DNA of 64,000 bases from Branchinecta lynchi (lineage: Eukaryota > Arthropoda > Branchiopoda > Anostraca > Branchinectidae): positions 9,052,212-9,116,211 of the forward strand of contig JAKZAP010000021.1 in NCBI GenBank assembly GCA_023053575.1. Direction: 5' to 3'. The position numbers and the translations under genes are program-made. This document shows, piece by piece, positions 291-54,970 of this stretch (position 1 is its first letter; each line of letters opens with the position of its first letter). The notes under the pieces were generated by a model. It was given only the letters and a program-made list of their open reading frames with translations, was not told the DNA's origin and did not search any database.

Positions 291-318
291 CTTTTCGTTT
301 AAGAAAATTGTTTTCTAA

Positions 319-1391: not shown

Positions 1392-1404
1392 AATTACTTG
1401 TATA

Positions 1405-2964: not shown

Positions 2965-2993
2965 AGGATTAGTGAAATAAAATTATTTACCTA

Positions 2994-2999
2994 TAAATG
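2994..2999 (+). promoter_or_regulatory. TAAATG start-site motif
   Basis: CCTATAAATGT spans the ATG at 2997. This is the only copy not followed by G. Confidence 0.45.
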
Positions 3000-3353
3000 T
3001 TGATTAATAATAAGCGATTACTTTATAAAAAGCAGTATGGAAGTGGAATCGGTAGTGTATTCAAAAACATTGTTAATTCCCAGTTATTTCAAACGTCAGC
3101 AAAACAAATAAAAGATGGGGCTATGTCAATGTATAATAATATTATTAAACCGAGATTTGAGTTGTTGAAAAACAGAGCAATAGAATATGGGAAAGATCTG
3201 ATCGATGTAAACAAGAAAGAACTCATTGATGTAATTGGAAACAAAAAATCGATGAAGGATCTTATCGGTACAAATAAAAGGATTTTAAACCAAAGAAGTC
3301 AGGACTTGATCAAAACGTTAATGACTGGCAATGGATTAAAGATTCTGAAATAA
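2997..3353 (+). CDS. Small basic virion protein (pVI/pX-like candidate)
   Basis: The protein has 118 residues, is Lys/Asn-rich and has an early Gly-rich motif (KKQYGSGIGSVF, residues 11-22). It is followed by amphipathic helical sequence and Asp/Ile-rich repeats (KDLIDVNKKELIDVIGNKKSMKDLIG). Polinton and adintovirus genomes usually carry such a short basic protein between the minor and major capsid genes. The Gly-rich segment resembles adenain-type cleavage sites, suggesting processing by the protease at 3-290. Whether it acts in membrane lysis (pVI-like) or in packing DNA cannot be decided from sequence. It sits 32 bp after the previous stop and 30 bp before the MCP start. Confidence 0.6.
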   Translation: MLINNKRLLYKKQYGSGIGSVFKNIVNSQLFQTSAKQIKDGAMSMYNNIIKPRFELLKNRAIEYGKDLIDVNKKELIDVIGNKKSMKDLIGTNKRILNQRSQDLIKTLMTGNGLKILK

Positions 3354-3380
3354 GTTTTATTTAATAATTTCTTTCTTATA

Positions 3381-3386
3381 TAAATG
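3381..3386 (+). promoter_or_regulatory. TAAATG start-site motif
   Basis: TATATAAATGG spans the ATG at 3384. Confidence 0.5.
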
Positions 3387-4757
3387 GCAGTAAATAAAGT
3401 TATCAGTCCGCAATGGAACATTTTTGATGAACCGCTTGTGGATGAAACAGTGGTTAAATATGAATTTAAAGAAATTCGAGAAACAGATGTGAATGTATCT
3501 AATAAATCAGAGTTTGAATTCGTAACAAAGAAATTAGATTCTTGGTTTTATCCAAGTGAAAGTTATCTTGATGTCAGTGTAAGAATAGTAAACCAAGATG
3601 GGACTCCTATAGCTGCAACCGATGTTGCTACTTTAACGAATAATGGATTTAATTTATTCAGTACCGCTGAGTATGTAATAAACGATGAATCGGTTGAAAA
3701 AATTAATCATGTTGGTATTACAACTACCGTTACAAAGTTGATTGAATACTCTGATGATTATTCTAGAAGTGCTGCAAGAAATCATTTCTGGTATAAAGAT
3801 TATAATCAAGGGAAAGAAATCAATCCTGTAATTGCTTCGTTTACTGCAACTCCAGTAGTAGCAGGGGCTGCAGGGGCTGCAGCAGGGGGTGGAACAGTCA
3901 GTTTGAGAAATAATAATAATTATAATAAAGGATTTGAAAAAAGATATAACAGAACAAAGAGCAGTAAATTAGTAAATATGTATTTACCATTATCAGAATT
4001 GTTTGGATTTCTGAAAGGAAACAAACGATTCTTCAGAGGTGCATCGCATAAATTATTTCTAAGAAGAAATGATGATAACAACATGATTATAAGAAATGGA
4101 AATACTAATTTCAAAGTAGTTATCGAGTATTTATCCTGGAAGATCCCTATTGTAGCTCCTAGTATCGAAATGATGAGTGAATTAGAAAAGGGTCTTGCTA
4201 AGGATAAAAAGCATAATCTGATGTGGGAAGCATGTAATAGTTATAAAAGTGATGTTAGTCAGAATAAGGAGCACACCTGGAAAGTTGTGTCTGAGAGAAA
4301 TAGTCCTACAAAAATCGTTGTGATGTTACAGAAAAATGAAAAGCATAACAATCAATTAATGAATAATATGGTGTTTGATCATATGAATTTAACAGACATA
4401 GAACTTAGAATTAATGGAGATAAATATCCTGAAGAACCACTCAAATGCGACTTTAGCGATGAGAAATGTAAATACTCAAATCTTTACAATAGGTTCATAC
4501 ATTTGGGCTATAAGCAATTAGCATTTGATACTGGTAGTGTTGTTAGTATAGAAGAATTTAAAGAAGTATATCCACTATTCTGTTTCGATGTTTCCAAACA
4601 CGAATCAAGTATATATAATGGAACAACTGCTGATATTGAAATAAGTTTAACATTAAAACACGCTCAGCCTGTACCATATAATATTTACTGTGTTATATAT
4701 TATGAAAGAAAAGCTACATTAGGTATTATTAACAAAAATATGTATGTGAGTTTGTGA
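3384..4757 (+). CDS. Major capsid protein candidate (double jelly-roll, F54H12.2-like)
   Basis: At 457 residues this is the largest virion gene here. Its position, length and sequence style match the Polinton major capsid protein, often annotated in invertebrate genomes as 'F54H12.2-like'. Visible blocks are LDSWFYPSESYLDVSVRI (residues 51-68), LPLSELFGFLKGNKRFFRGAS (201-221), FKVVIEYLSWKIPIVAPS and a C-terminal IEISLTLKHAQPVPYNIYCVIYYER. An Ala/Gly-rich insert at residues 156-170, encoded by GCAGGGGCT-type triplet repeats, probably lies in a surface loop. The frame is undamaged, as are the adjacent genes, suggesting a relatively recent insertion. The fold call rests on family knowledge and would need a structural search. 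Confidence 0.75.
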   Translation: MAVNKVISPQWNIFDEPLVDETVVKYEFKEIRETDVNVSNKSEFEFVTKKLDSWFYPSESYLDVSVRIVNQDGTPIAATDVATLTNNGFNLFSTAEYVINDESVEKINHVGITTTVTKLIEYSDDYSRSAARNHFWYKDYNQGKEINPVIASFTATPVVAGAAGAAAGGGTVSLRNNNNYNKGFEKRYNRTKSSKLVNMYLPLSELFGFLKGNKRFFRGASHKLFLRRNDDNNMIIRNGNTNFKVVIEYLSWKIPIVAPSIEMMSELEKGLAKDKKHNLMWEACNSYKSDVSQNKEHTWKVVSERNSPTKIVVMLQKNEKHNNQLMNNMVFDHMNLTDIELRINGDKYPEEPLKCDFSDEKCKYSNLYNRFIHLGYKQLAFDTGSVVSIEEFKEVYPLFCFDVSKHESSIYNGTTADIEISLTLKHAQPVPYNIYCVIYYERKATLGIINKNMYVSL

Positions 4758-9680: not shown

Positions 9681-9765
9681 GCTGTAGAATTCCAGGAGGT
9701 GAAAATATTCGTACATAAATATTGCTATCTGTATTTTACGTATTTGCATAATAACCCGGGAAATG

Positions 9766-10930
9766 GATAAATCTAATTGCAATAGATTTTAAAAAAGCTT
9801 TCGATCTTGTAGATCACAAGATTTTGCTGGAAAAAATGGCAGAGAAAAATATTCCTGAATATCTTATTAATATCGTAAAAAGCTTTCTAACAAACAGAGA
9901 ACAAATCGTAAAATATAAAAATAATTTTTCTTCTTCTTTACCGATTTTTTGCGGTGTCCCGCAAGGAACAGTGATCGGTCCTTTATGCTTCCTCCTCATG
10001 ATCAATGAAATAGCTGTCGGGCTGGAAGAAAGATGGAAGTATGTAGATGATCTTTCCCTAGCAGAGGTAGTATTTGGAGCGTGTAAAAGTCAAACTTTCA
10101 ATTATATTGAACAAGTTACCTCTGAAGCAGCAAAATTAAATATGGTGGTAAATAAAGATAAATCTTCAGTAATGACATTTTCATTTCTCAAGAAAAGCCT
10201 ACCTGAATTCGAACCACCTATAGACCCAAACCTCCTCTGTAACAGCACTACCCTGCTTGGGGTAGTGATCTCTTCTGATCTAACTTGGCATGAAAACACA
10301 AGATTGATTGTAAAAAAGGCAAATGGCTATCCAAATGCTGAAGACTCTAACGAAATTCCGGGTTCCTAAGGATAAACTAAAATTAATTTTCTGCATGTTC
10401 ATCCGCCCACTAGTAGAATATGCATGTCCTGTTTGGCATTTCGCTCTTACAAAAGAAGAAAGTGATAAAATTGAACGGGTTCAGAAGAGGTCGCTACAAA
10501 TCATCTACGGAGGTTCCCCACTGCCGTACTCTTTTTATCTAAAAGAATACAAACTTGACCCCCTTTTTGCCCGTCGAGAGAAACTGTGCCTAAAATTTGG
10601 CTCAACCCTCCTCCTCCACCCCATCTACAAGAACTTCCTCCCGCCCCCCTTTGTCCCCCTCAGATCCCGACTCCCCAGAGAGGCGGCTGCGAAAGTTCCA
10701 AAACTGACACCGGTTTTCTCCAGGTCACAGCGTTATTCTAGAAGCTTTGTGCCGAGTTTTGTTCGTACTTTTAACAATTCGTAACTTGTGTGTTTTATCC
10801 TATTCTTTTTGTTTTTCTCGTTGACAAATCTTTCTTGTATTAACTGTTTGACTAAAAGATACCATATTTGGGCTATGCCTATGAGAGACTGTATCTTGTT
10901 TACATTAAATGATTTGATTTGATTTGATTT
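9766..10930 (+). pseudogene. 5'-truncated LINE reverse transcriptase with a frameshift
   Basis: RT motif A (AIDFKKAFDLVDHKILLEKM), motif B region (GVPQGTVIGPLCFLLMINEI) and motif C (KYVDDLSLA, a Y-x-D-D box) read in one frame to about 10320. A single-base shift there moves the rest into another frame (FIRPLVEYACPVWHF, then SFVPSFVRTFNNS, ending 10784). The clade resembles CR1/L2-like non-LTR elements. Endonuclease and 5' parts are missing, as expected of 5'-truncated insertion. The 3' end runs into an (ATTTG)n tail at about 10906-10930. It cannot encode an active enzyme. Confidence 0.85.
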
Positions 10931-16020: not shown

Positions 16021-16557
16021 AATAGTATGCGTGTTGGGAGCTTATCTTTTTGGATTTTTAGGCTGTCGAGACAGAATTATTGGGGTGTCGCAGCAATTAT
16101 GATTAAAACTATATTCCAGACCTTATTTTCATCCAGAACGATTTTGGAGCCAAGTTTAATTAATTGGAAATGAGATCTAGATTATTTTAACCTTTTATCA
16201 GAAAAGAACACCTCGCACCTTATTGGTCAGTTCTTGCATCTTCATTTTGACCAACGAACAGGATGCTAGACTCCTGTCCCGTACCAGATTCTAGTGAGAA
16301 CATCCAGAATTCCTAAATTTGTTTTCTGGCCAGAAACAAATATCTGGGCAGTGAGAACTTACCTTACCTCCGGTTATTTGGGGTAGCCCTTGCACTTTCA
16401 CCATGGTTCCTATTTTTTACCCCCCCCCCCCTCCCCCCCCCATTTGTTCTTTATATTTATTCCAAGCTATTTTGATGTTGCAGGCTGGAAGAAAGAATAG
16501 TTCACAGATATTGCAGCTAAACTGTCGAACAAGGCAAGAGGTTCTGGCGTCGCAAGT

Positions 16558-17796
16558 ATGGAACTTGCTAACTCGGATGTGGAAAAAGAAACAGCTACAA
16601 AACTTCCAAGTCCATCTAGTGACGTTAGCAGAAAGGAAGTGAGGCCAGAAATAGATGCCAACACATCAGCAGCTGACGACTCACAATCCGGTAATGATGG
16701 AGGTATGACAAGTGAAACTTCGGAGACAGAAAGAGAGATTTGTGATAATGACAGTTCTATCTCTGAACTGCCTGAAACTTCATTGAGTCGTGAATTAACA
16801 CAAACAAAGCAACAAACAGACCGGCCTCTAAAAAAGACAGTATACAATTCAAAGATAAGCTCAAAGTCATCTAGTACATCTAAGCTGAGCAAGATAACGA
16901 CTCGCAGTTTTGAGTGTGAGAAATGCCCTAGTACTTTCCCTGGTAGGTTGGAGTACAGGGAGCACCTTCAATCAGCTCACAATAAGAAGTTCAGAGTTCA
17001 CAAGCCACCAAAATGGAAGCGAGAGCGCAGGGTTTATTCCTGTGAAGTTTGCAATGTCGACTTCCAAGTGATGAAAGTATTTATTCAGCATATGAAAGAA
17101 GCGCATAATCAACCAAAGCCATTCCAGTGTTCAACATGCATTGCTAGATTTGTTAGTTTACGGAGTGTTATGAGACACTTTGCTGAGTTTCATCAAGATG
17201 GAAAAACCTACAATGGGAAAGGCTTCTTCGACAAAGAAAAGAGAGAATTTGTCTGCTGCTGGTGCGGTGAAAGATTCCCAACAAAAGCGCAGATGTATAA
17301 ACACAATGCTTTAGCCCACGAAGGTGGATTAACTGTGTGTGAGTTATGCGGTGATGCACTCGCCTCTCCTTCTTCGCTTGCACAGCACAAAAAAAGAAAG
17401 CACAGTAGTGAACTCCCTTTCACATGTGAGGTGTGCCAGAAAAGCTTTCCCGTTCCGCAAGCACTAGTGGAACATTCATACATTCATTTGGAGGTTAGCA
17501 AACCTTTCAAATGTGACATCTGCACTAAAGAGTTTTCTCGGAAACGAGTCATGCTGCGCCACCGTGAGGGCCACTCTGATGAAAGGCGCTTCTTGTGTAG
17601 CGAATGTGGAAAAGGGTTTAAACAAAAAGTCAACTTAGAAGCACATACGAGATTGCATGGGGGTGAGAAGCCATACAAGTGCTGGCCGTGTGGAAAATCG
17701 TTTACGCAGAACATACTATTAACTAAACATCTCAAGTCTCACCCAGAGGACCAAAGAATGGCACCGAGCCTACTTGGAAATATGATGGAAGAATGA
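16558..17796 (+). CDS. C2H2 zinc-finger protein, nine fingers
   Basis: The 412-residue protein has an N-terminal Ser/Thr/Glu-rich disordered region (residues 1-110) followed by nine C2H2 fingers from about residue 119. Examples are FECEKCPSTF...H-x4-H, YSCEVCNVDF, FKCDICTKEF, FLCSECGKGF and YKCWPCGKSF. The last two are joined by the consensus linker GGEKPYKC. A basic stretch HKPPKWKRERR precedes finger 2. It is probably a nuclear DNA-binding regulator. The start is the first ATG after an in-frame stop at 16498. The 60 bp before it look homologous to the coding N-terminus of the paralogue at 53432, so the original start codon may have been lost. All cysteines and histidines appear intact, so the gene is probably functional. 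Confidence 0.9.
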   Translation: MELANSDVEKETATKLPSPSSDVSRKEVRPEIDANTSAADDSQSGNDGGMTSETSETEREICDNDSSISELPETSLSRELTQTKQQTDRPLKKTVYNSKISSKSSSTSKLSKITTRSFECEKCPSTFPGRLEYREHLQSAHNKKFRVHKPPKWKRERRVYSCEVCNVDFQVMKVFIQHMKEAHNQPKPFQCSTCIARFVSLRSVMRHFAEFHQDGKTYNGKGFFDKEKREFVCCWCGERFPTKAQMYKHNALAHEGGLTVCELCGDALASPSSLAQHKKRKHSSELPFTCEVCQKSFPVPQALVEHSYIHLEVSKPFKCDICTKEFSRKRVMLRHREGHSDERRFLCSECGKGFKQKVNLEAHTRLHGGEKPYKCWPCGKSFTQNILLTKHLKSHPEDQRMAPSLLGNMMEE

Positions 17797-26478: not shown

Positions 26479-26484
26479 AACTTC
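26479..26484. repeat. Left 6-bp target-site duplication (AACTTC)
   Basis: AACTTC directly precedes AGTAGTTATCTAGG and is repeated exactly at 37068-37073 after the other terminus. Six bp is the TSD length made by Polinton/Maverick integrases. Confidence 0.93.
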
Positions 26485-26512
26485 AGTAGTTATCTAGGCA
26501 CTTATAAAGCGG

Positions 26513-26615
26513 CATTCTGTATACTGGGGCATTCTGTATACTGGGGCATTCTGTATACTGGGGCATTCTGTATACTGGGGCATTCTGTATACTGGGGTAT
26601 TCTGTATACTGAGGG
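26513..26615 (+). repeat. Subterminal 17-bp tandem repeat, six copies
   Basis: The unit CATTCTGTATACTGGGG repeats six times starting 28 bp inside the terminus; the mirror array at 36957-37039 has five. It is followed by degenerate copies of GACTACGCTCGGTTAG. It could be an origin or transposase-binding array, or a simple VNTR. Confidence 0.85.
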
Positions 26616-26858
26616 ATTCAAGGCGGACTTACTACGCTCGGTTAGGTTAGACTGACTATGCTTGGTTAGGGCGGCCTGACTACGCTCGGTTATATGGGAG
26701 GTCAGGTTACTAAGATGCTAAGGGGTTCCCCATCTCCCCCTTCCCCCCTTCTAGTATATGGTAGTAGGGGATTATCCTTCTGTTATATATTATAGTTAAA
26801 CTAATTAGTGTGATGGTAAGAATATAACTAAACTAGTTGGTACGATGATAAAAAATAT

Positions 26859-27003
26859 GATGGTGATGAAATGTCTGGTTTCCTACGGATCGTTTTCTTT
26901 GTGTCGCTTGGACTTTGCACAGATGGTGATGAAATGTTTGCGTTTGCACCATCTCCTTTGTGTCGCTTGGAATATGGGTTTGCACAGATGGTGATGAAAT
27001 GTC
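26859..27003 (+). promoter_or_regulatory. Direct repeats upstream of the polymerase gene
   Basis: GATGGTGATGAAATGT occurs three times (about 26859, 26921, 26987), and CTTTGTGTCGCTTGGA twice between them, ending about 100 bp before the first ATG at 27108. They are mirrored in the other arm. A promoter role is inferred from position only. Confidence 0.35.
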
Positions 27004-27107
27004 CCCTTTCTGACACTTGCCATAGACAAGCTGTTAATTGGCAAACACCCCAATCCCCGCACCTGGCTTTTGGGAAATATGCTTCAGTTGCCTGAGAAAC
27101 CTCAACT

Positions 27108-28150
27108 ATGGAGGTGAACGAATCTGACGATAGTTTTTGTGAATTTCTCGAAAGTGAGGACGGCCAGAATTATCTGTTAAATACTTTACCACAATATGAA
27201 AGACAGCGTGAAATGGAACAAGACAGTTTTGCTGAGTTCATGGAAACTGAGGAGGGTCAGAATTACATGACAAACATTTTACCGCAATACGACAGAACAA
27301 TGGGAGAAGACGAAGCATGTGACCCGTTTGCCGGAACAGAACTGGATTTAAACAACGTTTCCTATGATGATTGCGATGTAAGTTATTAAAACTAATTAGC
27401 GTTTAAGTTATGCTTTCATAATCGTTCGATCCCTAGGTATGATTTTCACGCGATCGATTCTGACGACACTACACTGATTTCTACGTTTTCCGCGCCGTGT
27501 TATCGCACTACCGACGGGAACTATCTTAGCACTTAGAACTAAGAATTTAAAATATTTAAACTAGTACTAAGATCCATATCGAACCTTTAAAATAGAAGTT
27601 ACCACTAATTAAATTATATCAACCCCTTAAAGTAGAACTTAACACTATTTTAATTATACATAATCCTCAAACTAGAATGGAAAAGTAATTAAATCATATC
27701 CAACCCTTAAAGTAGAACTTAACACTATTCCAAACCGTTACAGAGACATATGTATAAGATTTATAACACGTTTTCATTTCTTTTTAGGATGAAGGGTGTC
27801 TGCTTCGAGTATCGAAACGTATTCGAGAAAAAGAAGAAGAAGTTCAAACAAAGCGGGCCAGGCTAGAACCGCAAGCCTGCAGTACTCCTCTCCCCACCAC
27901 ACCCCAAGAACTGGAAGAGGCGCGATTTTCGCCAATAAACACACCCTCACAACGTACCTTGGATATTTCGGACTGGTCGGATTTCGAGTTTGACGAGGAT
28001 CTGTTCCGACAGGAATGTGAACCCTTAAACCAGACTGGAGGTGGGCTTCTCGCGATTGAAAGTCCTGAAAGACCTGTCTCGTTTGAAGCTCAGCGAATTC
28101 CATCTTCGTTGGATGTTATACCTGAATCTCCAGAACCAGAACCTCTTCCG
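27108..28150 (+). CDS. Exons 1 and 2 of the polymerase gene, left arm: acidic repeat and linker domains
   Basis: Exon 1 (27108-27377, 90 codons) starts at an ATG. It encodes two copies of an acidic motif ending GQNYLLNTLPQY-R / GQNYMTNILPQYDR, each preceded by D-S-F-x-E-F. It ends GAT|gtaagt. Exon 2 begins after ...TTTCTTTTTAG at 27788 in the same phase. It encodes a basic/coiled segment (SKRIREKEEEVQTKRARLEP) and an acidic Pro/Ser-rich linker with DISDWSDFEFDEDLF. It ends CCG|gcaagt, a GC-AG intron donor at 28151. Both introns keep phase 0 into the polymerase exon at 28783. I do not recognise the domain; an N-terminal region upstream of a protein-primed polymerase could include the priming (terminal) protein, but this is speculation. 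Confidence 0.65.
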
Positions 28151-28461
28151 GCAAGTAAAATTTATTTTTAATGTTTTCACCGTTTTCTTCCATTTTATTC
28201 TCCATTCTTGAAACTCGTCACCGGTTCCTTTTCCCTCTTCTTTTTTCAAGCTTTTTCTGTTCCAAATTATTTACGATTCGGTTAATGTATAATTTTTGGT
28301 ATGTTAGCTATGATGATTTGGCAGCAATATTTCGGACGTTCTTGGCAAAGGATTCTCTTCAGATGGTCTCCTGGGTCAACACTGTGGAAAGGAATCAAAC
28401 ATGCAATCGGTTTTTAGTTTTTAGCATTTAAGATTTTTGGTTTTCACTTTCAAATTTTAGC

Positions 28462-28605
28462 ATTTAGGATTTTTCCGTATTTGGGATTTCCATTTTTAGG
28501 ATTTTCAGTATTTGGGATTTCCATTTTTAGGATTTTCTGTATTTGGGATTTCCATTTTTAGGATTTTCCGTATTTGGGATTTCCATTTTAGGGTTTTTAG
28601 TTTTC
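28462..28605 (+). repeat. 30-bp tandem repeat in intron 2 (left arm)
   Basis: Units of GTATTTGGGATTTCCATTTT followed by TAGGATTTTC repeat about five times, then a long T-tract. The acceptor sequence AACTATATCTTTTTTTAGGT is itself duplicated (about 28717 and 28763). The second copy leads into exon 3; the first is a potential cryptic acceptor. Confidence 0.8.
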
Positions 28606-28782
28606 CATCTGTAAATTTAGATTTTAGCATTTAGGAATTTTTTTTTTTTTTTTTTTTTTTTGATATTTTTTTATTTTTTTTTCTTTTTGATTTTTTTTCT
28701 TTTAACAAATTTTAACTATATCTTTTTTTAGGTGTTTTTCTGCTTTTTTCTCTTAACAAATTTTAACTATATCTTTTTTTAG

Positions 28783-31514
28783 GTGTTTACAGAGCATGCA
28801 AGCGCCTTTCGAAAGGTTCTAAGGACATATCGTCTACACCCAGGAGCAATGTTTGAAGGAGCCAGAGCTGGAGATCTGGTGAATCAGCTACGCGAAACAA
28901 TTCGTGGTATATTGGAAAGTATCCAGACTGAGCAGAGAGCAGGTTTGCGTTTTCAAATTTGTGTTAACGCACAATTTAAGAAGTTATGTGAGAATGTTAT
29001 CGAAGTTCCACTGTGGTCTTTCATGGAACGATTTTATATGGGTTCCGATGTTGGTGAGATTATTGACGCGTGTTTGCGAAAAATTAACGAATCTGCTGAA
29101 AAATTTTCAGGGGCAGGCAGTGGATTTATTTTTCAAGGTGTTCTTTCTTTTGATTTGTATGTGGGTACTGCGGGTGACGATTTTCCTTTGCCTGTAGGCA
29201 CGAAAGGTCCTCCAATCCCAAAAGATTTGCAAAAGAAAAGGGCATTAATCCGGTTTCGCTTTGACCAGTCTGAACAATGTTTCATGTGGGCTGTTTTAGC
29301 TTCGGGTCATGAGATAACAAGAGATGAATCGCCAAAGTTTAGTTTAGAGAGTCTAAACATTTTGGGGTTAACAAATGGTGGGATATTCCCAACAGTTACT
29401 TTTAACTGTTTTGAAAATTCGTGGCCAATAAAGATCAAAGACATAAAAAAGTGGGAGAAAGAAAACGAGGCTGCAGGTGTGGGGGTTGTTATTTTGAGGG
29501 ATGACGAACTTGATAAACTAACACACACAGTCCGTGTCCCTTCAGTTCCAAATGTCAAATACCCTGTTTATCTTTTGTATGGGGAACATAAGGAAAAAGC
29601 TCATTTTTGGCCGATTGTCTCCCTATCGCGTTTACTTCGGTACAAACAATGCTCTGAGCGTTATTACTGTCATTATTGCCTGTCGTCTCATACAAAGGTT
29701 GAACTTAGGGACGAACATGCTCGCTTCTGTTCGACCCATGGAATGCAAAGGGTTTCTCTTCCCTCCCAAGAGGAGAATACATTGGAGTTTACTAATCACC
29801 ACCACAAAATTCAGATGGAGTATCGTATTTTTGCTGATTTTGAGTCCGTGCTTAAACCTCTCGAAGATCCTCTCCAACCCTCTCTGACTTCCGAACATGT
29901 CCCTGCTGCTTTTGGTTTTGCTGTCATTGGTCGCGATAAGAAACTTGTTACTTATAAGGAGGATTACGGTGAAGGTTGTCATGTAAGGGGTTTGAAACTT
30001 CTTATGGGCGAAGTAGAGTTGTGCATAGATAAGGTACGACAGACTTATAACGATATGGTTATTACCGAGGCTGACCATGATAAGATTGTCTCTGATACTT
30101 GTTGGATCTGTCGAAAGAAGCTAATGAAGACCCCTCGCGAAAACCTGGTAAATATAAGAAGAATTCTGTTCACAGAGATCATGACCATTATACCGAAGGT
30201 CCAAATTTTAGAGGGAATTCTCATGGGTATTGCAACCTCCGTTTGTCCTTCAAGAAAAAACAGATTCCTGTGGGCTTTCACAATCTGTCCTACGACATCA
30301 AACACGTGCTTTCCGGTCTCTCTGTCCTGGAACAGGAAAATTATATTTCTTCTGGGATCAAGTATGAGATTATTTCCAAGACTAGTGAGCAGTTCCTAAT
30401 GTTATCAGTTTCTTGGACAAGACCTAATGTTAGGGGTGGGTTTGAAAAGTATGGCATGCAGCTGTATGATACTTTTTCGTTTCTTTCGAAATCACTTGAC
30501 ACTCTCATCAAAGTTCAAAAACAAGATGATCCACAGAGCTTTACCATATTGCGTCAGATGTTTCCAGATGATGAAAAATATGCTTTGCTTACCCAAAAGG
30601 GTGTATTCTGCTATTCCTATCTTGACAGCTTTGACAAGTTTCGGGACGCTTCCCTCCCACCGAAAGAAATGTTTAAAAACGATTTGATTGACGAACACAT
30701 TTCAGATAAAGAATACGTTTTTGCAGAAACAGTTTGGAACAAATTCTCTTGTTCCACCTTGCTTGACTATACTCTAGTTTATCTCAAGTCTGACGTACTT
30801 TGTCTTAGCGATGTTTTTATGAAATTTGCTCAAGATTTTTACGAACTGTATGAACTTGAAGTAAATTGCTACTTGAGTATGCCTTCTCTTTGCTATGATT
30901 TGATGCTTAAGATGACCAACGTTCGAATCGAGTTGTTAACTGACCAGTTAGCCTATCTTTTTATTGAAGCTTCGATTCTTGGTGGTTTGACTTTCCTCAA
31001 CCAAAGACATGTTAAATGTGATCCTAATGATGAAAATGATGCAAGGGTAGGTCTTTCCTTGGACGCAAACGGCCTTTATGCCGACGCGATGACACGCCAT
31101 CTACCGGTCGGTGGAGCAAAATGGGTTGAGCGGGAGCTATGGCCGGATTTCCGGACGGTTCCGGACGATGGACCGCACGGGTGGTTTGTTGAGATTACGG
31201 GCTCCATGCCTGAGAACTTGCATGATCTCTATCAGGATTTCCCCTTTCCCGTGAACAAGTTTAAAGTGAAATTTGAGGAGCTCTCACCCTTTAATCAACG
31301 TAGGATTCTCGAAGATAAGGTCCCTTGGTCGGAAGCGGAAAAACTGATTGGATGTTTCAAACCTCATGAATGTTTAATTGTCCATCACACGTATTTGAAA
31401 TGGATTCTGAATCATGGTTTTCATTTGCAGAAGATTCACAGGGTTATGCAGTTTGCCCAAAAACCATACTTGGCAGACTATATCAATCATCTCTACAAAA
31501 TAATCCGACCCTAG
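28783..31514 (+). pseudogene. Protein-primed DNA polymerase B (DNA_pol_B_2), left arm: frameshifted and truncated
   Basis: It follows the acceptor ...TTTTTTTAG at 28782 and continues in phase from exon 2. The frame matches the right-arm copy for 447 residues, including ExoI (RIFADFESVLKP), then a one-base deletion at 30125 (CTAATGAAG versus CTAATTGAAG) causes a shift and a stop at 30399. The remaining sequence continues in another frame with ExoII (FHNLSYD), ExoIII (YLKSDVL) and motif A (DANGLYADAM). It then reaches the fold-back junction at 31490 and stops at 31514. Motifs B and C are absent because the loop belongs to the other copy. It cannot make an active polymerase. Confidence 0.88.
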
Positions 31515-34500
31515 TTCATTTTTTAGTCTGCCCAGTTCATTCTTTTTGTTTGTCTTAACAAGATGAGCATGTTCTGGGGCCGTCAGATTCGAGAAATCAA
31601 TAATGTCTCGAAGCTCAGGCTGATTAAACACAGTGGTCCAACAAACGCCTCGGGGGACAGGGATTGTCACGATCAAACTATCGGTATCGGAATACACCAG
31701 TTTAGGCATGCCGACAATACCTAACCTAGCTGATAGAGGGCGATCCGGGGAAAGGAAAGGTTTCATAAGCTTGTCCCAGTAGAATTCCGCCATGATTGTT
31801 TTCGAAATACCAAGAATCGCCGAACCAGCCATGAGATGGTTATCCAAGAAAACATGCTTCTTTTTCCTATACATCACAGCTAGGTTCTCGCTGATGATTG
31901 TGAAAGAATCAATGTTTCCATCCCTCAAAAGCTTCTTTGCCTTTTTACCATTGTTCACAATAGTGCAACTGCTGTGTTTTCTATTATTTTGCAATGTCTT
32001 CCCGTAAATAGCATTGTTGCAAAGCTTGTATAGTTCAGATTTACATGATTCTGTGGTTTCAGCCCGTTTCTGAATGAAATGATTGATATAGTCTGCCAAG
32101 TATGGTTTTTGGGCAAACTGCATAACCCTGTGAATCTTCTGCAAATGAAAACCATGATTCAGAATCCATTTCAAATACGTGTGATGGACAATTAAACATT
32201 CATGAGGTTTGAAACATCCAATCAGTTTTTCCGCTTCCGACCAAGGGACCTTATCTTCGAGAATCCTACGTTGATTAAAGGGTGAGAGCTCCTCAAATTT
32301 CACTTTAAACTTGTTCACGGGAAAGGGGAAATCCTGATAGAGATCATGCAAGTTCTCAGGCATGGAGCCCGTAATCTCAACAAACCACCCGTGCGGTCCA
32401 TCGTCCGGAACCGTCCGGAAATCCGGCCATAGCTCCCGCTCAACCCATTTTGCTCCACCGACCGGTAGATGGCGTGTCATCGCGTCGGCATAAAGGCCGT
32501 TTGCGTCCAAGGAAAGACCTACCCTTGCATCATTTTCATCATTAGGATCACATTTAACATGTCTTTGGTTGAGGAAAGTCAAACCACCAAGAATCGAAGC
32601 TTCAATAAAAAGATAGGCTAACTGGTCAGTTAACAACTCGATTCGAACGATGGTCATCTTAAGCATCAAATCATAGCAAAGAGAAGGCATACTCAAGTAG
32701 CAATTTACTTCAAGTTCATACAGTTCGTAAAAATCTTGAGCAAATTTCATAAAAACATCGCTAAGACAAAGTACGTCAGACTTGAGATAAACTAGAGTAT
32801 AGTCAAGCAAGGTGGAACAAGAGAATTTGTTCCAAACTGTTTCTGCAAAAACGTATTCTTTATCTGAAATGTGTTCGTCAATCAAATCGTTTTTAAACAT
32901 TTCTTTCGGTGGGAGGGAAGCGTCCCGAAACTTGTCAAAGCTGTCAAGATAGGAATAGCAGAATACACCCTTTTGGGTAAGCAAAGCATATTTTTCATCA
33001 TCTGGAAACATCTGACGCAATATGGTAAAGCTCTGTGGATCATCTTGTTTTTGAACTTTGATGAGAGTGTCAAGTGATTTCGAAAGAAACGAAAAAGTAT
33101 CATACAGCTGCATGCCATACTTTTCAAACCCACCCCTAACATTAGGTCTTGTCCAAGAAACTGATAACATTAGGAACTGCTCACTAGTCTTGGAAATAAT
33201 CTCATACTTGATCCCAGAAGAAATATAATTTTCCTGTTCCAGGACAGAGAGACCGGAAAGCACGTGTTTGATGTCGTAGGACAGATTGTGAAAGCCCACA
33301 GGAATCTGTTTTTTCTTGAAGGACAAACGGAGGTTGCAATACCCATGAGAATTCCCTCTAAAATTTGGACCTTCGGTATAATGGTCATGATCTCTGTGAA
33401 CAGAATTCTTCTTATATTTACCAGGTTTTCGCGAGGGGTCTTCAATTAGCTTCTTTCGACAGATCCAACAAGTATCAGAGACAATCTTATCATGGTCAGC
33501 CTCGGTAATAACCATATCGTTATAAGTCTGTCGTACCTTATCTATGCACAACTCTACTTCGCCCATAAGAAGTTTCAAACCCCTTACATGACAACCTTCA
33601 CCGTAATCCTCCTTATAAGTAACAAGTTTCTTATCGCGACCAATGACAGCAAAACCAAAAGCAGCAGGGACATGTTCGGAAGTCAGAGAGGGTTGGAGAG
33701 GATCTTCGAGAGGTTTAAGCACGGACTCAAAATCAGCAAAAATACGATACTCCATCTGAATTTTGTGGTGGTGATTAGTAAACTCCAATGTATTCTCCTC
33801 TTGGGAGGGAAGAGAAACCCTTTGCATTCCATGGGTCGAACAGAAGCGAGCATGTTCGTCCCTAAGTTCAACCTTTGTATGAGACGACAGGCAATAATGA
33901 CAGTAATAACGCTCAGAGCATTGTTTGTACCGAAGTAAACGCGATAGGGAGACAATCGGCCAAAAATGAGCTTTTTCCTTATGTTCCCCATACAAAAGAT
34001 AAACAGGGTATTTGACATTTGGAACTGAAGGGACACGGACTGTGTGTGTTAGTTTATCAAGTTCGTCATCCCTCAAAATAACAACCCCCACACCTGCAGC
34101 CTCGTTTTCTTTCTCCCACTTTTTTATGTCTTTGATCTTTATTGGCCACGAATTTTCAAAACAGTTAAAAGTAACTGTTGGGAATATCCCACCATTTGTT
34201 AACCCCAAAATGTTTAGACTCTCTAAACTAAACTTTGGCGATTCATCTCTTGTTATCTCATGACCCGAAGCTAAAACAGCCCACATGAAACATTGTTCAG
34301 ACTGGTCAAAGCGAAACCGGATTAATGCCCTTTTCTTTTGCAAATCTTTTGGGATTGGAGGACCTTTCGTGCCTACAGGCAAAGGAAAATCGTCACCCGC
34401 AGTACCCACATACAAATCAAAAGAAAGAACACCTTGAAAAATAAATCCACTGCCTGCCCCTGAAAATTTTTCAGCAGATTCGTTAATTTTTCGCAAACAC

Positions 34501-34787
34501 GCGTCAATAATCTCACCAACATCGGAACCCATATAAAATCGTTCCATGAAAGACCACAGTGGAACTTCGATAACATTCTCACATAACTTCTTAAATTGTG
34601 CGTTAACACAAATTTGAAAACGCAAACCTGCTCTCTGCTCAGTCTGGATACTTTCCAATATACCACGAATTGTTTCGCGTAGCTGATTCACCAGATCTCC
34701 AGCTCTGGCTCCTTCAAACATTGCTCCTGGGTGTAGACGATATGTCCTTAGAACCTTTCGAAAGGCGCTTGCATGCTCTGTAAACAC
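31374..34787 (-). CDS. Protein-primed DNA polymerase B (DNA_pol_B_2), right arm: all six motifs, C-terminus lost
   Basis: The open exon has 1137 codons. Its polymerase-derived part is residues 1 to about 1099 (34787 to 31491). Landmarks: a Cys-rich pair YYCHYC/CSTHG near 295-319; ExoI D352/E354; an inserted EndoVII/HNH-like zinc motif (CWICRKK ... HRDHDHYTEG ... HGYCN, 440-484); ExoII HNLSYD (500-505); ExoIII Y667-x3-D671; motif A SLDANGLY (D761); motif B KLCNNAIYGK (921-930); motif C YSDTDS (D1034, D1036). After GRLKNELGSDYFVE the frame runs into antisense of the other arm, so the last 38 residues are junk. The K-x-Y/thumb region that normally follows is missing. In Polintons this enzyme copies the linear genome from terminal-protein primers. 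Activity of this truncated form is doubtful. Confidence 0.88.
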   Translation of the reverse strand: MFTEHASAFRKVLRTYRLHPGAMFEGARAGDLVNQLRETIRGILESIQTEQRAGLRFQICVNAQFKKLCENVIEVPLWSFMERFYMGSDVGEIIDACLRKINESAEKFSGAGSGFIFQGVLSFDLYVGTAGDDFPLPVGTKGPPIPKDLQKKRALIRFRFDQSEQCFMWAVLASGHEITRDESPKFSLESLNILGLTNGGIFPTVTFNCFENSWPIKIKDIKKWEKENEAAGVGVVILRDDELDKLTHTVRVPSVPNVKYPVYLLYGEHKEKAHFWPIVSLSRLLRYKQCSERYYCHYCLSSHTKVELRDEHARFCSTHGMQRVSLPSQEENTLEFTNHHHKIQMEYRIFADFESVLKPLEDPLQPSLTSEHVPAAFGFAVIGRDKKLVTYKEDYGEGCHVRGLKLLMGEVELCIDKVRQTYNDMVITEADHDKIVSDTCWICRKKLIEDPSRKPGKYKKNSVHRDHDHYTEGPNFRGNSHGYCNLRLSFKKKQIPVGFHNLSYDIKHVLSGLSVLEQENYISSGIKYEIISKTSEQFLMLSVSWTRPNVRGGFEKYGMQLYDTFSFLSKSLDTLIKVQKQDDPQSFTILRQMFPDDEKYALLTQKGVFCYSYLDSFDKFRDASLPPKEMFKNDLIDEHISDKEYVFAETVWNKFSCSTLLDYTLVYLKSDVLCLSDVFMKFAQDFYELYELEVNCYLSMPSLCYDLMLKMTIVRIELLTDQLAYLFIEASILGGLTFLNQRHVKCDPNDENDARVGLSLDANGLYADAMTRHLPVGGAKWVERELWPDFRTVPDDGPHGWFVEITGSMPENLHDLYQDFPFPVNKFKVKFEELSPFNQRRILEDKVPWSEAEKLIGCFKPHECLIVHHTYLKWILNHGFHLQKIHRVMQFAQKPYLADYINHFIQKRAETTESCKSELYKLCNNAIYGKTLQNNRKHSSCTIVNNGKKAKKLLRDGNIDSFTIISENLAVMYRKKKHVFLDNHLMAGSAILGISKTIMAEFYWDKLMKPFLSPDRPLSARLGIVGMPKLVYSDTDSLIVTIPVPRGVCWTTVFNQPELRDIIDFSNLTAPEHAHLVKTNKKNELGRLKNELGSDYFVEMIDIVCQVWFLGKLHNPVNLLQMKTMIQNPFQIRVMDN
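31491..32078 (-). other. Unique loop at the centre of the palindrome (fold-back junction)
   Basis: 588 bp are present once. Read on the - strand it is the uninterrupted continuation of the right-arm polymerase (motifs B and C). It ends at 31491, where the strand continues straight into the reverse complement of the left arm (ATGATTGATATAGTCTGCC). The arms part company exactly after TATATCAATCAT. One arm is thus colinear with the loop and the other is a re-copied strand. This is the geometry expected when a nascent 3' end folds back and primes on itself 588 nt upstream. Confidence 0.85.
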
Positions 34788-34964
34788 CTAAAAAAAGATA
34801 TAGTTAAAATTTGTTAAGAGAAAAAAGCAGAAAAACACCTAAAAAAAGATATAGTTAAAATTTGTTAAAAGAAAAAAAATCAAAAAGAAAAAAAAATCAA
34901 AAAATATCAAAAAAAAAAAAAAAAAAAAAAATTCCTAAATGCTAAAATCTAAATTTACAGATGG

Positions 34965-35105
34965 AAAACTAAAAACCCTAAAATGGAAATCCCAAATACG
35001 GAAAATCCTAAAAATGGAAATCCCAAATACAGAAAATCCTAAAAATGGAAATCCCAAATACTGAAAATCCTAAAAATGGAAATCCCAAATACGGAAAAAT
35101 CCTAA
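34965..35105 (-). repeat. 30-bp tandem repeat in intron 2 (right arm)
   Basis: Mirror copy of 28462-28605, flanked by a long A-tract at 34904-34930 that differs by one base in length from its partner T-tract. Confidence 0.8.
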
Positions 35106-35418
35106 ATGCTAAAATTTGAAAGTGAAAACCAAAAATCTTAAATGCTAAAAACTAAAAACCGATTGCATGTTTGATTCCTTTCCACAGTGTTGACCCAGGA
35201 GACCATCTGAAGAGAATCCTTTGCCAAGAACGTCCGAAATATTGCTGCCAAATCATCATAGCTAACATACCAAAAATTATACATTAACCGAATCGTAAAT
35301 AATTTGGAACAGAAAAAGCTTGAAAAAAGAAGAGGGAAAAGGAACCGGTGACGAGTTTCAAGAATGGAGAATAAAATGGAAGAAAACGGTGAAAACATTA
35401 AAAATAAATTTTACTTGC

Positions 35419-36461
35419 CGGAAGAGGTTCTGGTTCTGGAGATTCAGGTATAACATCCAACGAAGATGGAATTCGCTGAGCTTCAAACGAGACAGGTCTT
35501 TCAGGACTTTCAATCGCGAGAAGCCCACCTCCAGTCTGGTTTAAGGGTTCACATTCCTGTCGGAACAGATCCTCGTCAAACTCGAAATCCGACCAGTCCG
35601 AAATATCCAAGGTACGTTGTGAGGGTGTGTTTATTGGCGAAAATCGCGCCTCTTCCAGTTCTTGGGGTGTGGTGGGGAGAGGAGTACTGCAGGCTTGCGG
35701 TTCTAGCCTGGCCCGCTTTGTTTGAACTTCTTCTTCTTTTTCTCGAATACGTTTCGATACTCGAAGCAGACACCCTTCATCCTAAAAAGAAATGAAAACG
35801 TGTTATAAATCTTATACATATGTCTCTGTAACGGTTTGGAATAGTGTTAAGTTCTACTTTAAGGGTTGGATATGATTTAATTACTTTTCCATTCTAGTTT
35901 GAGGATTATGTATAATTAAAATAGTGTTAAGTTCTACTTTAAGGGGTTGATATAATTTAATTAGTGGTAACTTCTATTTTAAAGGTTCGATATGGATCTT
36001 AGTACTAGTTTAAATATTTTAAATTCTTAGTTCTAAGTGCTAAGATAGTTCCCGTCGGTAGTGCGATAACACGGCGCGGAAAACGTAGAAATCAGTGTAG
36101 TGTCGTCAGAATCGATCGCGTGAAAATCATACCTAGGGATCGAACGATTATGAAAGCATAACTTAAACGCTAATTAGTTTTAATAACTTACATCGCAATC
36201 ATCATAGGAAACGTTGTTTAAATCCAGTTCTGTTCCGGCAAACGGGTCACATGCTTCGTCTTCTCCCATTGTTCTGTCGTATTGCGGTAAAATGTTTGTC
36301 ATGTAATTCTGACCCTCCTCAGTTTCCATGAACTCAGCAAAACTGTCTTGTTCCATTTCACGCTGTCTTTCATATTGTGGTAAAGTATTTAACAGATAAT
36401 TCTGGCCGTCCTCACTTTCGAGAAATTCACAAAAACTATCGTCAGATTCGTTCACCTCCAT
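35419..36461 (-). CDS. Exons 1 and 2 of the polymerase gene, right arm
   Basis: Exon 1 is 36461-36192 and exon 2 is 35781-35419 on the - strand, with the same GT donor, AG acceptor and GC donor as the left copy. The encoded acidic repeat (GQNY-LPQY twice) and linker are identical to the left arm as far as I compared. They feed in phase into the polymerase exon at 34787. This copy leads to the less damaged polymerase. Confidence 0.65.
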
Positions 36462-36956
36462 AGTTGAGGTTTCTCAGGCAACTGAAGCATATTTCCCAAA
36501 AGCCAGGTGCGGGGATTGGGGTGTTTGCCAATTAACAGCTTGTCTATGGCAAGTGTCAGAAAGGGGACATTTCATCACCATCTGTGCAAACCCATATTCC
36601 AAGCGACACAAAGGAGATGGTGCAAACGCAAACATTTCATCACCATCTGTGCAAAGTCCAAGCGACACAAAGAAAACGATCCGTAGGAAACCAGACATTT
36701 CATCACCATCATATTTTTTATCATCGTACCAACTAGTTTAGTTATATTCTTACCATCACACTAATTAGTTTAACTATAATATATAACAGAAGGATAATCC
36801 CCTACTACCATATACTAGAAGGGGGGAAGGGGGAGATGGGGAACCCCTTAGCATCTTAGTAACCTGACCTCCCATATAACCGAGCGTAGTCAGGCCGCCC
36901 TAACCAAGCATAGTCAGTCTAACCTAACCGAGCGTAGTAAGTCCGCCTTGAATCCC

Positions 36957-37039
36957 TCAGTATACAGAATACCCCAGTATACAGAATGCCCCAGTATACA
37001 GAATGCCCCAGTATACAGAATGCCCCAGTATACAGAATG
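36957..37039 (-). repeat. Subterminal 17-bp tandem repeat, five copies
   Basis: Mirror of 26513-26615 but one unit shorter. This explains the 17-bp difference in arm length. Confidence 0.85.
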
Positions 37040-37067
37040 CCGCTTTATAAGTGCCTAGATAACTACT

Positions 37068-37073
37068 AACTTC
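37068..37073. repeat. Right 6-bp target-site duplication (AACTTC)
   Basis: Exact copy of 26479-26484, directly after the terminal ...GATAACTACT. Confidence 0.93.
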
Positions 37074-38680
37074 GACGGCAATCGATAGCCGCTAATGAGC
37101 TAATCAAAGTATATGACATCCATTTTTGGTAAAAAAAATTCCTTTATGAGATATACCAGTTTGAAAGTTTCAAGGGGTTGACAACTTCAGTAGTAAGGTA
37201 CACACTGAAACCAAAAATAGGCGATACCAGTTGTGAGACATTTAGGGGACTTGTACGCGACAGGCGACTGTTAGCTCATAATCATCTTCGGCAATGAGGG
37301 GTTTGCAGCTCTCGCTAGTTGGCGTACCTGTCATTTGATGAACAATTTGGTTCCCAAATGTAAAACATGCAAGGAACTTGTAAGTAATAATCGGCTGTTA
37401 TGCTACACAAATCTTCAGCGATGAGGGGTTTGCAACTTTTGCTAGTCGGTGTACCCATTATTTTTATCCGGTGAACTTGATGTCTATCACGGGAAAGGGA
37501 CTTGTCAGTAGAATCGGTGCACGAGGGGCTAGAAATTTGTTCAAATTGTTGCACATTGTATTCGATTTATATTAATCTGACGGTAAGAAAGTTTGTATCG
37601 TTGGTCTATCGCTGTAACCTAGGATTTACTGTTAACGCAACGGGTACAAACGATACTGTAATGTAAAACAAGGTAGTTTGGTAATAATTAATAGTGTCAT
37701 CTATGGTATTTTAATCCTAAAAAGTTACGGATAGCTTTATAATACCAACTAGATTATATAGGATATTATTCCAAGTTTTCATCCGTCACGATGTCTACGA
37801 TTGAAAAGGATAAAGTTCAACTGACTGCAAAGTCAATTTAGTCCCTTTTCCGATATGCTTTTGTTGTGGTTAGGGCAATCGATAGCCCTTGAAGAGCTGA
37901 TCAAAATATATGCCATCCATTTTTTTGAACAAAAATCCTTCATGAGATAAACCAGTTTGAAAGTTTCAAGGGGTTGACAACTTCAGGAGTAAGGTACACA
38001 CTGAAACCAAAAATAGGCGATACCAGTTATGAGACATGTAAGGGACTTGTAAGCAACAGTCGACTGTAAGCAACAGTCGACTGTTAGCTCATAATCATCT
38101 TCAGCAACGAGGAGTTTAAAGCTTTTGCTAGTTGGTATACCTGTTATTTGTCTCAGGATATGTATTCGATGGTAAGAACAATTTTGTTCCCAATTGTAAG
38201 ACATGCATGGGACTTGTAAGTAATAATCGGCTTTTATGCTATAATCATCTTCAGCGATGAGGGGTTTGCAACTTTTGATAGCTGGTGTATCCATTATTTG
38301 TTTCCGGTGAATTTGATGTCAATCACGGGAGACGGACTTGTAAGTAAGATCGGTTCACGAGGGGCTAGAAATTTTTGAAAATTGGTGCACATTCTATTCG
38401 ATTTCTGTAAATATGACAGTAAGAAAGTTTGTATCGATGGTCTATCGCTATAACCTAGGATTAACTGTTTACGCAACGGGTACAAACGATACGGTAATGT
38501 AAAACAATAAGGTAGATGTGTAATAATTAATAGTGTCATCTATGGTATTTTAATCCTGAAACGTTACGGATAGCCTTCTTCCGATATTGTTTTGTTGTTG
38601 GTTTTACAACGCTAAAGAACAGCTTTTGATTATGTGATTATTCTTTTTAGAACATACCGTTTTAAAAGCTTCGATAAGTT
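37074..38680 (+). repeat. Degenerate tandem repeat units flanking the palindromic element, right side
   Basis: Two further units (about 37074-37860 and 37870-38680) of the repeat described at 25160. They carry the same CAATCGATAGCC start and TACGATTGAAAAGGATAAAG end. The palindromic element sits at a unit boundary. Confidence 0.8.
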
Positions 38681-53330: not shown

Positions 53331-53431
53331 GGTCCGTATCAAATAAGGAACTTGGGAGCGTTGTTAGTCTCTTCCTGCACTTTGGTGCAAGGAACTCTAG
53401 CTGGAGCTTTTTTACTCCTTTGTAAAACAAT
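53331..53431 (+). other. 5' UTR part of the zinc-finger gene 2 exon
   Basis: A strong polypyrimidine tract and acceptor (TTTTTTTTTTTTCAG) end at 53330. The 101 bp up to the ATG carry no in-frame ATG and resemble the 5' region of the paralogue at 16483. Confidence 0.5.
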
Positions 53432-54970
53432 ATGGCTGCCATTAGTGAATGGAAAAAGACGAGGGCCTCTGGAAGTAAAGACGAAATTGAAGCTGGGGCT
53501 TCAGGAGACACAAGTGTCACGGAACTTGCGCTGAACTTAAGCCTGAACCGTGCCGATTGTGAACAACAGTCTCAAATGCAAGAAATTGATGAAGACATAG
53601 ATGAACGTGACAATGCATCAGATGAAGATCTGGACTCTGACAGCTCTTTTGAATCTGAGGGAGATGAAATAGTATTTAAGAAAAATAAGAGGAACAACAA
53701 GAAGAAGCCCAAACATGGACCGTTCAAATGTTCGGATTGCCCAGACCTTGAATTCACCCTAAAAAACGATTTATATGAGCATCTTGCTGCTGTTCATAAG
53801 ATGAAAGTTCGAATTTACAAACCACCAAAAACAAAAAGAGAAAAGCGCTTATTTACCTGTGATGTATGCAATGCTGTATTTCATATCAAAGGTGCATTCA
53901 TTAACCACATGAAGAACGACCACAAGATGATCCAGGCCTTCAAGTGCTCCGACTGTGACGTACGCTTCACGGGCCTAAGAAATCTGCAGGGGCATTACTA
54001 CAGGGTCCACGAGCCAGAGGGTACGAAATACCCATGCGCACAGTGCCCCAAGGTGTTCTATGTTAAAACGCGCTTGACCAGGCATATGGAGTCCCATAAA
54101 GAAAAGCCGCCTGTTTGTACCATCTGCGCAGAATGTGGTATCGACTTCAAGTCAAAGCAGGCCCTGTCTCAGCATATGTCAATGAGTCATGAGGTTGTTC
54201 GACCCTTTATATGTGAATGCTGCGCCAAAACGTTTTCAAAACTGCCAGACTTGAAAAGACATCTTAATAAGCACACAATGGAGGAAAAGTTTGAGTGCAC
54301 ACACTGTGACAAAGTCTACTTCAGCATGGACGAGCTTCGGAAGCACGAACAACGGGCGCATTCCAATCAAGAATTTAAATGCGAGCTGTGCTCTAAAAAA
54401 CTACGTACCTTCAAAAGCTTGCAGTCCCATGTCAAAATCATTCACCTAAAAGAACCAACTCACCGAGTGAAGCGTTATAAGTGTGATGCGTGTGACCTGA
54501 TGTTTCAGTCGCCTGGATTGAAAGTGCAACACTTTCGATCTGTTCATATGCTAGAACGCCCCTTTACATGCCACCTATGTGGCAAAACCTTCGGATTCCA
54601 AAACCTACTAAACCGCCATTTGGATGTACATTATGAGGTTAAGAAGTACCAGTGTCCTCATTGCAAAAAGTCATTTTCACAAAAGTCGAACATGAATATG
54701 CATGCTCGCACTCACACTGGAGAAAAGCCTTATAAATGCTCTGTCTGTGACAAGGGTTTCACGCAGAGCTCAAATTTAAAAACCCATATGAAAAATCATA
54801 GAAGGTGCAATGAATCATCCAACTCCTCCGAGCAGAGCGATTCGCCAACTGAGCGTGAAACCGGAGTGAAAGTGATGGTTTCGCGGACTGCAGACCTGGG
54901 TCCTGATAGTCAAACTTGGCAGGAGCTTTCAAAAATCTTGGTTCCTGATGGCGATGACAGCCAGTCTTAA
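53432..54970 (+). CDS. C2H2 zinc-finger protein, twelve fingers
   Basis: The protein has 512 residues. MAAISEWKK starts an N-terminal region that becomes strongly acidic (residues 45-85, EIDEDIDERDNASDEDLDSD), then a basic patch (KKNKRNNKKKPKHG). Twelve C2H2 fingers run to about residue 460: FKCSDCPDLEF (one residue longer than usual), FTCDVCNAVF, FKCSDCDVRF, YPCAQCPKVF, CAECGIDF, FICECCAKTF, FECTHCDKVY, FKCELCSKKL, YKCDACDLMF, FTCHLCGKTF, YQCPHCKKSF and YKCSVCDKGF. The last pair is joined by THTGEKPYKC. The segment RIYKPPKTKREKRLFTCDVCN matches the paralogue at 16558 (HKPPKWKRERR-YSCEVCN), showing common descent. It is probably a nuclear transcriptional regulator. The single coding exon is intact. 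Confidence 0.92.
   Translation: MAAISEWKKTRASGSKDEIEAGASGDTSVTELALNLSLNRADCEQQSQMQEIDEDIDERDNASDEDLDSDSSFESEGDEIVFKKNKRNNKKKPKHGPFKCSDCPDLEFTLKNDLYEHLAAVHKMKVRIYKPPKTKREKRLFTCDVCNAVFHIKGAFINHMKNDHKMIQAFKCSDCDVRFTGLRNLQGHYYRVHEPEGTKYPCAQCPKVFYVKTRLTRHMESHKEKPPVCTICAECGIDFKSKQALSQHMSMSHEVVRPFICECCAKTFSKLPDLKRHLNKHTMEEKFECTHCDKVYFSMDELRKHEQRAHSNQEFKCELCSKKLRTFKSLQSHVKIIHLKEPTHRVKRYKCDACDLMFQSPGLKVQHFRSVHMLERPFTCHLCGKTFGFQNLLNRHLDVHYEVKKYQCPHCKKSFSQKSNMNMHARTHTGEKPYKCSVCDKGFTQSSNLKTHMKNHRRCNESSNSSEQSDSPTERETGVKVMVSRTADLGPDSQTWQELSKILVPDGDDSQS

Follow-up and report, generated by a model that had tools for sequence, protein, structure and literature searches.

A palindromic Polinton in Branchinecta lynchi: a probable integrated snap-back genome

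Polintons, or Mavericks (Polintoviricetes), are marked by a family B DNA polymerase (PF03175), AG...CT inverted ends and 6-bp target-site duplications (TSDs). We analysed a 64,000-nucleotide stretch of contig JAKZAP010000021.1 of the anostracan Branchinecta lynchi (assembly GCA_023053575.1, positions 9,052,212 to 9,116,211 of the forward strand), hereafter the window, and found in it a 10,583-bp palindrome (26485-37067, from self-alignment of its arms) that shares these traits and has an ordinary relative with an annotated integrase. Unlike a Polinton, the window copy is a single element end mirrored, carries only incomplete polymerases and gave no integrase match in the three polymerase open reading frames (ORFs) searched, the small ORFs lying outside that search; a missing integrase match is expected for a truncated form. 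We consider it likely that this element is an integrated snap-back (copy-back) Polinton genome, inserted by a Polinton integrase acting in trans.

The yeast linear killer plasmid pGKL1, a terminal-protein replicon, gives rise to hairpins and palindromic dimers, is cytoplasmic and is neither integrated nor mobile in the genome; these hairpin and inverted-dimer derivatives are like the window element in form and unlike it in not being integrated. Adeno-associated virus (AAV) forms self-complementary snapback genomes from its left or right moiety, symmetric or asymmetric, with or without a single-stranded loop, which are replicated with a helper (PMC8235507; this and the following sources are cited from excerpts). 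AAV uses Rep and helper functions; the relatives of the window element instead encode a family B polymerase, and the palindromic forms are chromosomal and bear duplications of the integrase type. Copy-back and snap-back defective viral genomes also arise by a template switch, keep one genome end in their complementary ends and need a helper, but those described in the excerpt of PMC12310628 belong mainly to RNA viruses, with genome insertion not among them. In the DNA elements Foldback and Galileo, long inverted repeats likewise predominate; Galileo is placed in the P-element superfamily (PMC3573991), whereas no P-element-type transposase match was found among the ORFs searched here. The template-switch model of origin-dependent inverted-repeat amplification (ODIRA; PMC10766183) is a cousin process in chromosomal DNA. 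Palindromic Polintons were not described in the title or opening abstract of any paper returned by searches of the open-licence literature in PMC, a weak negative at that scope, and the word stem 'palindrom' is absent from PMC8504770, PMC11071308 and PMC6431247, all of which discuss Polintons or Mavericks.

The arms of the window palindrome align over 4,991 columns with three mismatches, one 17-bp repeat-unit difference and two 1-bp indels, which bears out a preliminary description of this DNA that gave two arms of about 5.0 kb, more than 99% identical, around a 588-bp loop (Table 1). One of the three mismatches (31491/32078) is the loop edge; the loop measures 588 bp if this mismatch is assigned to it and 582 bp otherwise. 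An inverted-repeat scan returned the arms as three long inverted repeats and one short terminal one. A chance inverted repeat is ruled out by the length and identity of the arms, and an Rfam scan gave no match at gathering score. The element ends read AGTAG...CTACT (26485 and 37067) with AACTTC directly outside each, in agreement with the AG...CT ends and perfect 6-bp TSD noted before. The flank had been called single-copy; it is instead a local host repeat, the two sides having about 82–97% direct similarity to each other and to neighbouring sequence. Neither flank is an inverted copy of the other, and the mirror symmetry ends at the element termini. Together with the matching TSD, this supports the earlier proposal of a non-autonomous Polinton-type palindrome integrated as one unit. 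A paralogous repeat unit (37398-38404) spans the equivalent site without the element but with about 50 other bases and, owing to these, is only a rough empty site at best.

Both polymerases of the palindrome are incomplete. A profile search matched the window polymerase to the protein-primed-type family B DNA polymerases (PF03175, E 9.9e-25). In the right-arm copy, 1,101 of the 1,203 residues of an ordinary copy precede the fold, where polymerase sequence stops, and a KCY just past this point is what we take to be the K-x-Y motif; the left-arm copy has a frameshift and meets the fold at residue 903. The earlier view that only polymerase genes are kept was right about their identity, while both copies are incomplete and two small ORFs are kept as well. 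The window copy is probably fully helper-dependent. Of 7,881 candidates, 15 proteins were polymerase relatives at 25–30% identity, the best at E 1.3e-124, and an IMG/VR scan with the polymerase found no relative. A T-rich tract (28638-28800, mirrored near 34770-34932) ends in TTTTTTTAG just upstream of the polymerase frame; its sequence resembles a splice acceptor, and the polymerase may have an upstream exon.

Table 1. Features of the window palindrome (window positions) and related family-A copies (C plus number, contig of the assembly)
Feature	Position	Strand	Remarks
Left TSD, AACTTC	26479..26484		flank reading
Right TSD, AACTTC	37068..37073		flank reading
Left arm	26485..31490	+	Polinton polymerase-side end read inward
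Right arm	32079..37067	-	inverted copy of left arm
Loop	31491..32078	-	588 bp, single copy; part of polymerase gene in copies uninterrupted here
Fold-back junction	31484..31490	-	7-bp microhomology (9/10 with one mismatch), minus-strand reading; known at window locus only
Subterminal 17-bp tandem repeats, left	26511..26619	+	6.4 copies
Subterminal 17-bp tandem repeats, right	36950..37041	-	5.4 copies
Polymerase open frame, right arm	31374..34787	-	PF03175; 1137 aa between stops; polymerase sequence for 1,101 residues to fold, then 36 out-of-context
Left-arm polymerase, first piece	28783..30399	+	frame broken
Left-arm polymerase, second piece	30096..31514	+	PF03175; meets fold at residue 903
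127-aa ORF, left arm	27788..28171	+	equal-length ORF at same place in ordinary copies
127-aa ORF, right arm	35398..35781	-
97-aa acidic ORF, left arm	27096..27389	+
97-aa acidic ORF, right arm	36180..36473	-
Ordinary family-A copy	C4:16732889-16746608		matching TSD
Ordinary family-A copy	C11:23521801-23536498		matching TSD
Ordinary family-A copy	C16:2320033-2334575		matching TSD
Ordinary family-A copy	C22:23941704-23955486		matching TSD
Family-A palindrome C6	C6:3873550-3887607		TSD AGCCCG
Family-A palindrome C10a	C10:18625062-18638926		TSD ATAATC
Family-A palindrome C2	C2:15570698-15584690		TSD GGCGTA
Internally deleted family-A copy, 6.2 kb	C4:5390794-5396960		CCTGGC both sides

We searched the chromosome-scale assembly (575.7 Mb, 216 contigs), several searches scoring the best candidates only. 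The 216-bp element end has 35 matches in the genome. Pairing of these ends by position, on our own reading, gave nine loci of the window element's family (family A) with identical 6 bp outside both ends, namely the window and eight further single-element loci. Other copies with different TSDs, to which the preliminary description had pointed as a check, are present among them: three further complete palindromes were found, each with its own TSD. Their arms measure 6.6–6.74 kb at 99.8% identity, whereas inverted ends in the seven ordinary-layout family-A copies are only about 0.5 kb long. In overall length these palindromes span 13.9–14.1 kb, against 13.7–14.7 kb for the four TSD-matched ordinary copies. 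The C10a palindrome lacks one polymerase stretch, the same in both arms.

The ordinary copy on C16, the only one annotated, encodes a polymerase (PF03175, E 6.3e-25) and a retroviral-type integrase (rve, 9.6e-9) and has a weak chromodomain match. Further weak matches, below curated cut-offs, were to AAA-type or related ATPase models (5e-4 to 6e-3) and to a Ulp1-type protease (Peptidase_C48, 0.0059); the protease candidate had no solved-structure match. A 424-aa capsid candidate of the ordinary copy matched nothing in Pfam or PHROG, and a protein search with it gave no homologue; its solved-structure match was at chance level, and it matched weakly (pairwise E 0.002) the double-jelly-roll protein at window 3384-4757. 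Sixteen family-A rows differ at 0–10 positions per 1,236 bp; thus family A is young. A tree of its copies had too few differences to place the palindromes, and none of the differences between polymerase and capsid ends that would be diagnostic of a single-end origin was near-fixed.

The fold-back junctions show how the palindromes are joined. Each family-A palindrome has a short word common to the native downstream sequence and to the reverse complement of an upstream site, and passes from the one into the other there: the word is ATGATTG in the window, ATGC within a longer imperfect match in C6, AAGAAATA in C10a and CAAGT in C2. Microhomology of 7, 4, 8 and 5 bp, respectively, was thus found at all four junctions, and the four palindromes fold at four different positions. 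Random folds on the same sequence reached at least 4 bp in 2.0% of 200,000 trials; by our arithmetic, and assuming independence, the chance of four such junctions is about 2e-7. Copies that are uninterrupted at the window junction (ordinary C11, and C6 and C2, which fold elsewhere) are 99.6–99.7% identical over the 1.7–1.9 kb compared, and this identity runs through the polymerase and loop and breaks at the window junction. At that junction, the mismatch in the longer match carries the downstream (primer-side) base, as expected if a downstream 3' end primed. The palindromes therefore have the features of snap-back genomes: (i) both ends come from one parental end, (ii) the loop is unique parental sequence and (iii) the switch lies at a short homology.

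Do such junctions move? A 200-bp query across the window junction matched at full length at the window alone among the best 40 of 59 candidates scored; the other 39 matches were one-sided and overlapped by 10 bp. Two of the four family-A junctions occur at two sites each, and those of the window and C6 at one (C6 being compared among the retrieved loci only). A second site for the C2 junction is contig C158, where it stands on either side of the C158 centre, in a copy whose left end lies at 1997 with the flank GTGGCT, unrelated to the C2 left flank, and whose right arm ends early at about 12974. The C10a junction recurs at C19:24859831, again with an unrelated left flank (AGCAAA) and with mirrored arm pieces present. 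With the ordinary family-A Polintons, these two junctions, each at two sites with unrelated left flanks, also support integration as one unit, and their recurrence supports helper-dependent extrachromosomal replication only indirectly.

Polymerase-side palindromes occur in related families as well. One lies at C3:3403853/3410110, in a family whose polymerase is about 92% identical, with its left arm cut at 3403573. In the 3.1 kb read, perfect arms of 1,528 bp flank a loop of 22 nt, of which 12 nt lie within an inner 4-bp stem; the fold point is a natural hairpin of ordinary family-A copies. A third family, at C2:17809555/17810782, has a 29-nt loop and 118-bp perfect arms within the 281 bases read. 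With loops of 22 and 29 nt, a narrow loop size (515–667 bp by alignment) was rejected as a general rule.

Mirror layouts were also found on the capsid side. A search with the 424-aa protein scored the best 99 of 252 candidates (100 rows), and adjacent matches with gaps below 30 kb formed 20 outward, 1 inward and 7 same-way pairs. In one family (family D), a 48%-identical homologue forms 12 outward pairs with a spacing of 5,795–5,861 bp on 10 contigs, with a protease homologue just outside on the left in 12/12 and on the right in 11/12 (best 150 of 214 candidates). A 291-bp marker from near the centre of one copy occurs once in each of these 12 loci, the distance being a constant 3,374 bp to one gene and 2,131–2,197 to the other; all 20 marker matches are listed at 100% identity, one of them scoring slightly lower. 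At four loci (C22 twice, C3 and C5), the marker stands in an ordinary layout beside a polymerase match, whereas at C21:5292604, C2:11986373, C9:19791785 and C10:3251082 the layouts are incomplete, altered or unassigned, three of the four having outward protease matches. The 20 loci found thus include 12 mirror layouts versus 4 ordinary ones, which fits a single palindromic lineage at no fewer than 12 loci, its arms being inferred from gene coordinates. Next to the marker, one strand reads by eye as integrase, and the mirror form would keep at least part of that gene. A family at 38% identity has four pairs at a spacing of 10,182–10,197 bp and two at other spacings, with protease outside both sides in 6/6. 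A polymerase-side preference for palindromes, as family A had suggested, is therefore not general.

What is the mechanism of palindrome formation? In a snap-back origin, a Polinton would replicate as a linear molecule by protein-primed strand displacement, and the 3' end of a nascent or displaced polymerase-sense strand would halt inside the polymerase gene. The 7-bp word would let this end anneal to a site some 590 nt upstream in its own strand, or else to the displaced strand, and synthesis back to the 5' end would yield a hairpin. One more replication would convert the hairpin into a palindrome with both ends from the polymerase-side end, which a Polinton integrase supplied in trans could insert with a 6-bp duplication. 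The extrachromosomal stage, the protein priming and the supply in trans are steps that we infer; a Polinton-type polymerase, an Entamoeba enzyme, has intrinsic strand displacement in vitro (PMC3511435, excerpt), and a terminal-protein domain in Polinton polymerases has been argued for (PMC11071308, excerpt).

Alternatively, and as the main rival to a snap-back origin, an ordinary Polinton could have been broken internally and repaired in situ, its far end being resected to its terminal inverted repeat (TIR), primed on the near repeat, extended inward by copying of the polymerase arm and then sealed through end joining at microhomology. Such repair keeps the TSD, gives the same anatomy and also predicts microhomology and intact TSDs. 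Ordinary-layout family-A copies have inverted ends of about 500 bp, and the inverted 216-bp flank copy at C22:9265964-9282909 suggests some inverted-end repair in this genome. It accounts for single loci, the window included, equally well, and the window junction is private to its site (best 40 of 59 candidates), as it predicts. The same prediction fails elsewhere, however: C2/C158 and C10a/C19 share their junctions at sites with unrelated left flanks, and one family D layout stands at 12 loci. To explain shared junctions at unrelated sites, repair in situ needs gene conversion or a repeated event each time. Moreover, three of the four palindromes lack end-to-end substitutions over 510 columns, although the ordinary copy on C11 lacks them too. 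We regard repair in situ as an unlikely origin for the window element.

An assembly or library artefact, through fold-back chimaeras or collapsed repeats, is far less probable. Fold-back chimaeras are a known artefact of long reads and amplification, but a fold-back read would mirror the flank too, whereas the window flanks are not inverted copies and the TSD matches; in addition, the arms differ at specific positions and the three other complete palindromes carry other TSDs. Least credible of all is an unusual Polinton family with normal TIRs of about 5–6.7 kb, which would fit the anatomy taken alone but not the short inverted ends of the seven same-family ordinary-layout copies, the four different fold positions or a polymerase cut mid-gene in the window.

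Several points weigh against a snap-back origin. The palindromes are known here from assembled sequence alone, and the folding strand is not distinguishable from the data. The C158 and C3 palindromes lack part of one arm and the right end of C19:24859831 was not found, so that a second TSD is not readable at these three loci. The size match to ordinary copies is loose, since the window palindrome measures 10.6 kb and three other ordinary-layout copies 13.0, 13.5 and 16.9 kb. The substitution contrast is weak: at least one end-to-end substitution over the 510 columns was found in 1/4 palindromes versus 6/7 ordinary-layout copies (Fisher p 0.088); over a 370-column part the counts are 0/4 versus 6/7. 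The family D arms are known from gene coordinates, and the 611 nt read near the centre of one copy are without complementarity, so that the loop in that copy exceeds 611 nt.

Other family-A loci have more complex structures. Four gave no direct-duplication match as single elements (C22:9265964, C10:11364250 and C10:11403242, all in ordinary layout, and C19:26827498), and the last three sit in larger composites with matching outermost ends. The composite-like C10:11364250-11416754 holds two same-way ordinary-layout copies 26 kb apart, whose outermost ends share AACCCT and whose inner neighbours differ. C19:26827498-26870756 is a 43-kb structure between family-A ends with CCCGGC outside both and capsid-side genes outward at both ends; after an internal element end, the 1.5 kb compared match the C22:23955486 flank at 99.93% identity, possibly host DNA captured between Polinton ends. 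At C22:9265964-9282909, the flanks of the ordinary-layout copy are perfect inverted copies over 216 bp, with AAAGTC and GACTTT outside, and the flanks of the internally deleted copy at C4:5390794-5396960 repeat 283 bp directly.

Elsewhere in the window, positions 1-4757 hold part of another virus-like element, AT-rich at about 31% GC and apparently cut by the left edge of the window, with an rve integrase (399-1391) and the double-jelly-roll protein (3384-4757, PF21738). The host flank contains a reverse-transcriptase remnant (9755-10784) and C2H2 zinc-finger ORFs (16501-17796 and 53426-54970).

What could such palindromes do? It is conceivable, if doubtful, that polymerase-side and integrase/capsid-side palindromes are complementing half-genomes of a split or multipartite Polinton that replicates and spreads as mirror-image segments; palindromy would then be a regular mode of existence of these Polintons and more than an accident. 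In a related option, the convergent polymerase genes of polymerase-side palindromes may yield hairpin RNA that regulates or silences the helper; an engineered AAV snapback dimer lowered Rep expression (PMC8235507, excerpt). The 12-locus layout of family D suggests that palindromic forms can themselves become mobile lineages, and mobile palindromes could give rise to non-autonomous elements, split genomes and long hairpin RNA directed at a virus. Polinton replication has largely been inferred from Polinton genes. If the snap-back origin is true, microhomology fold-backs with correct ends and duplications would constitute a chromosomal fossil record of strand-displacing linear replication, whose loops and junctions would be readable in any long-read genome.

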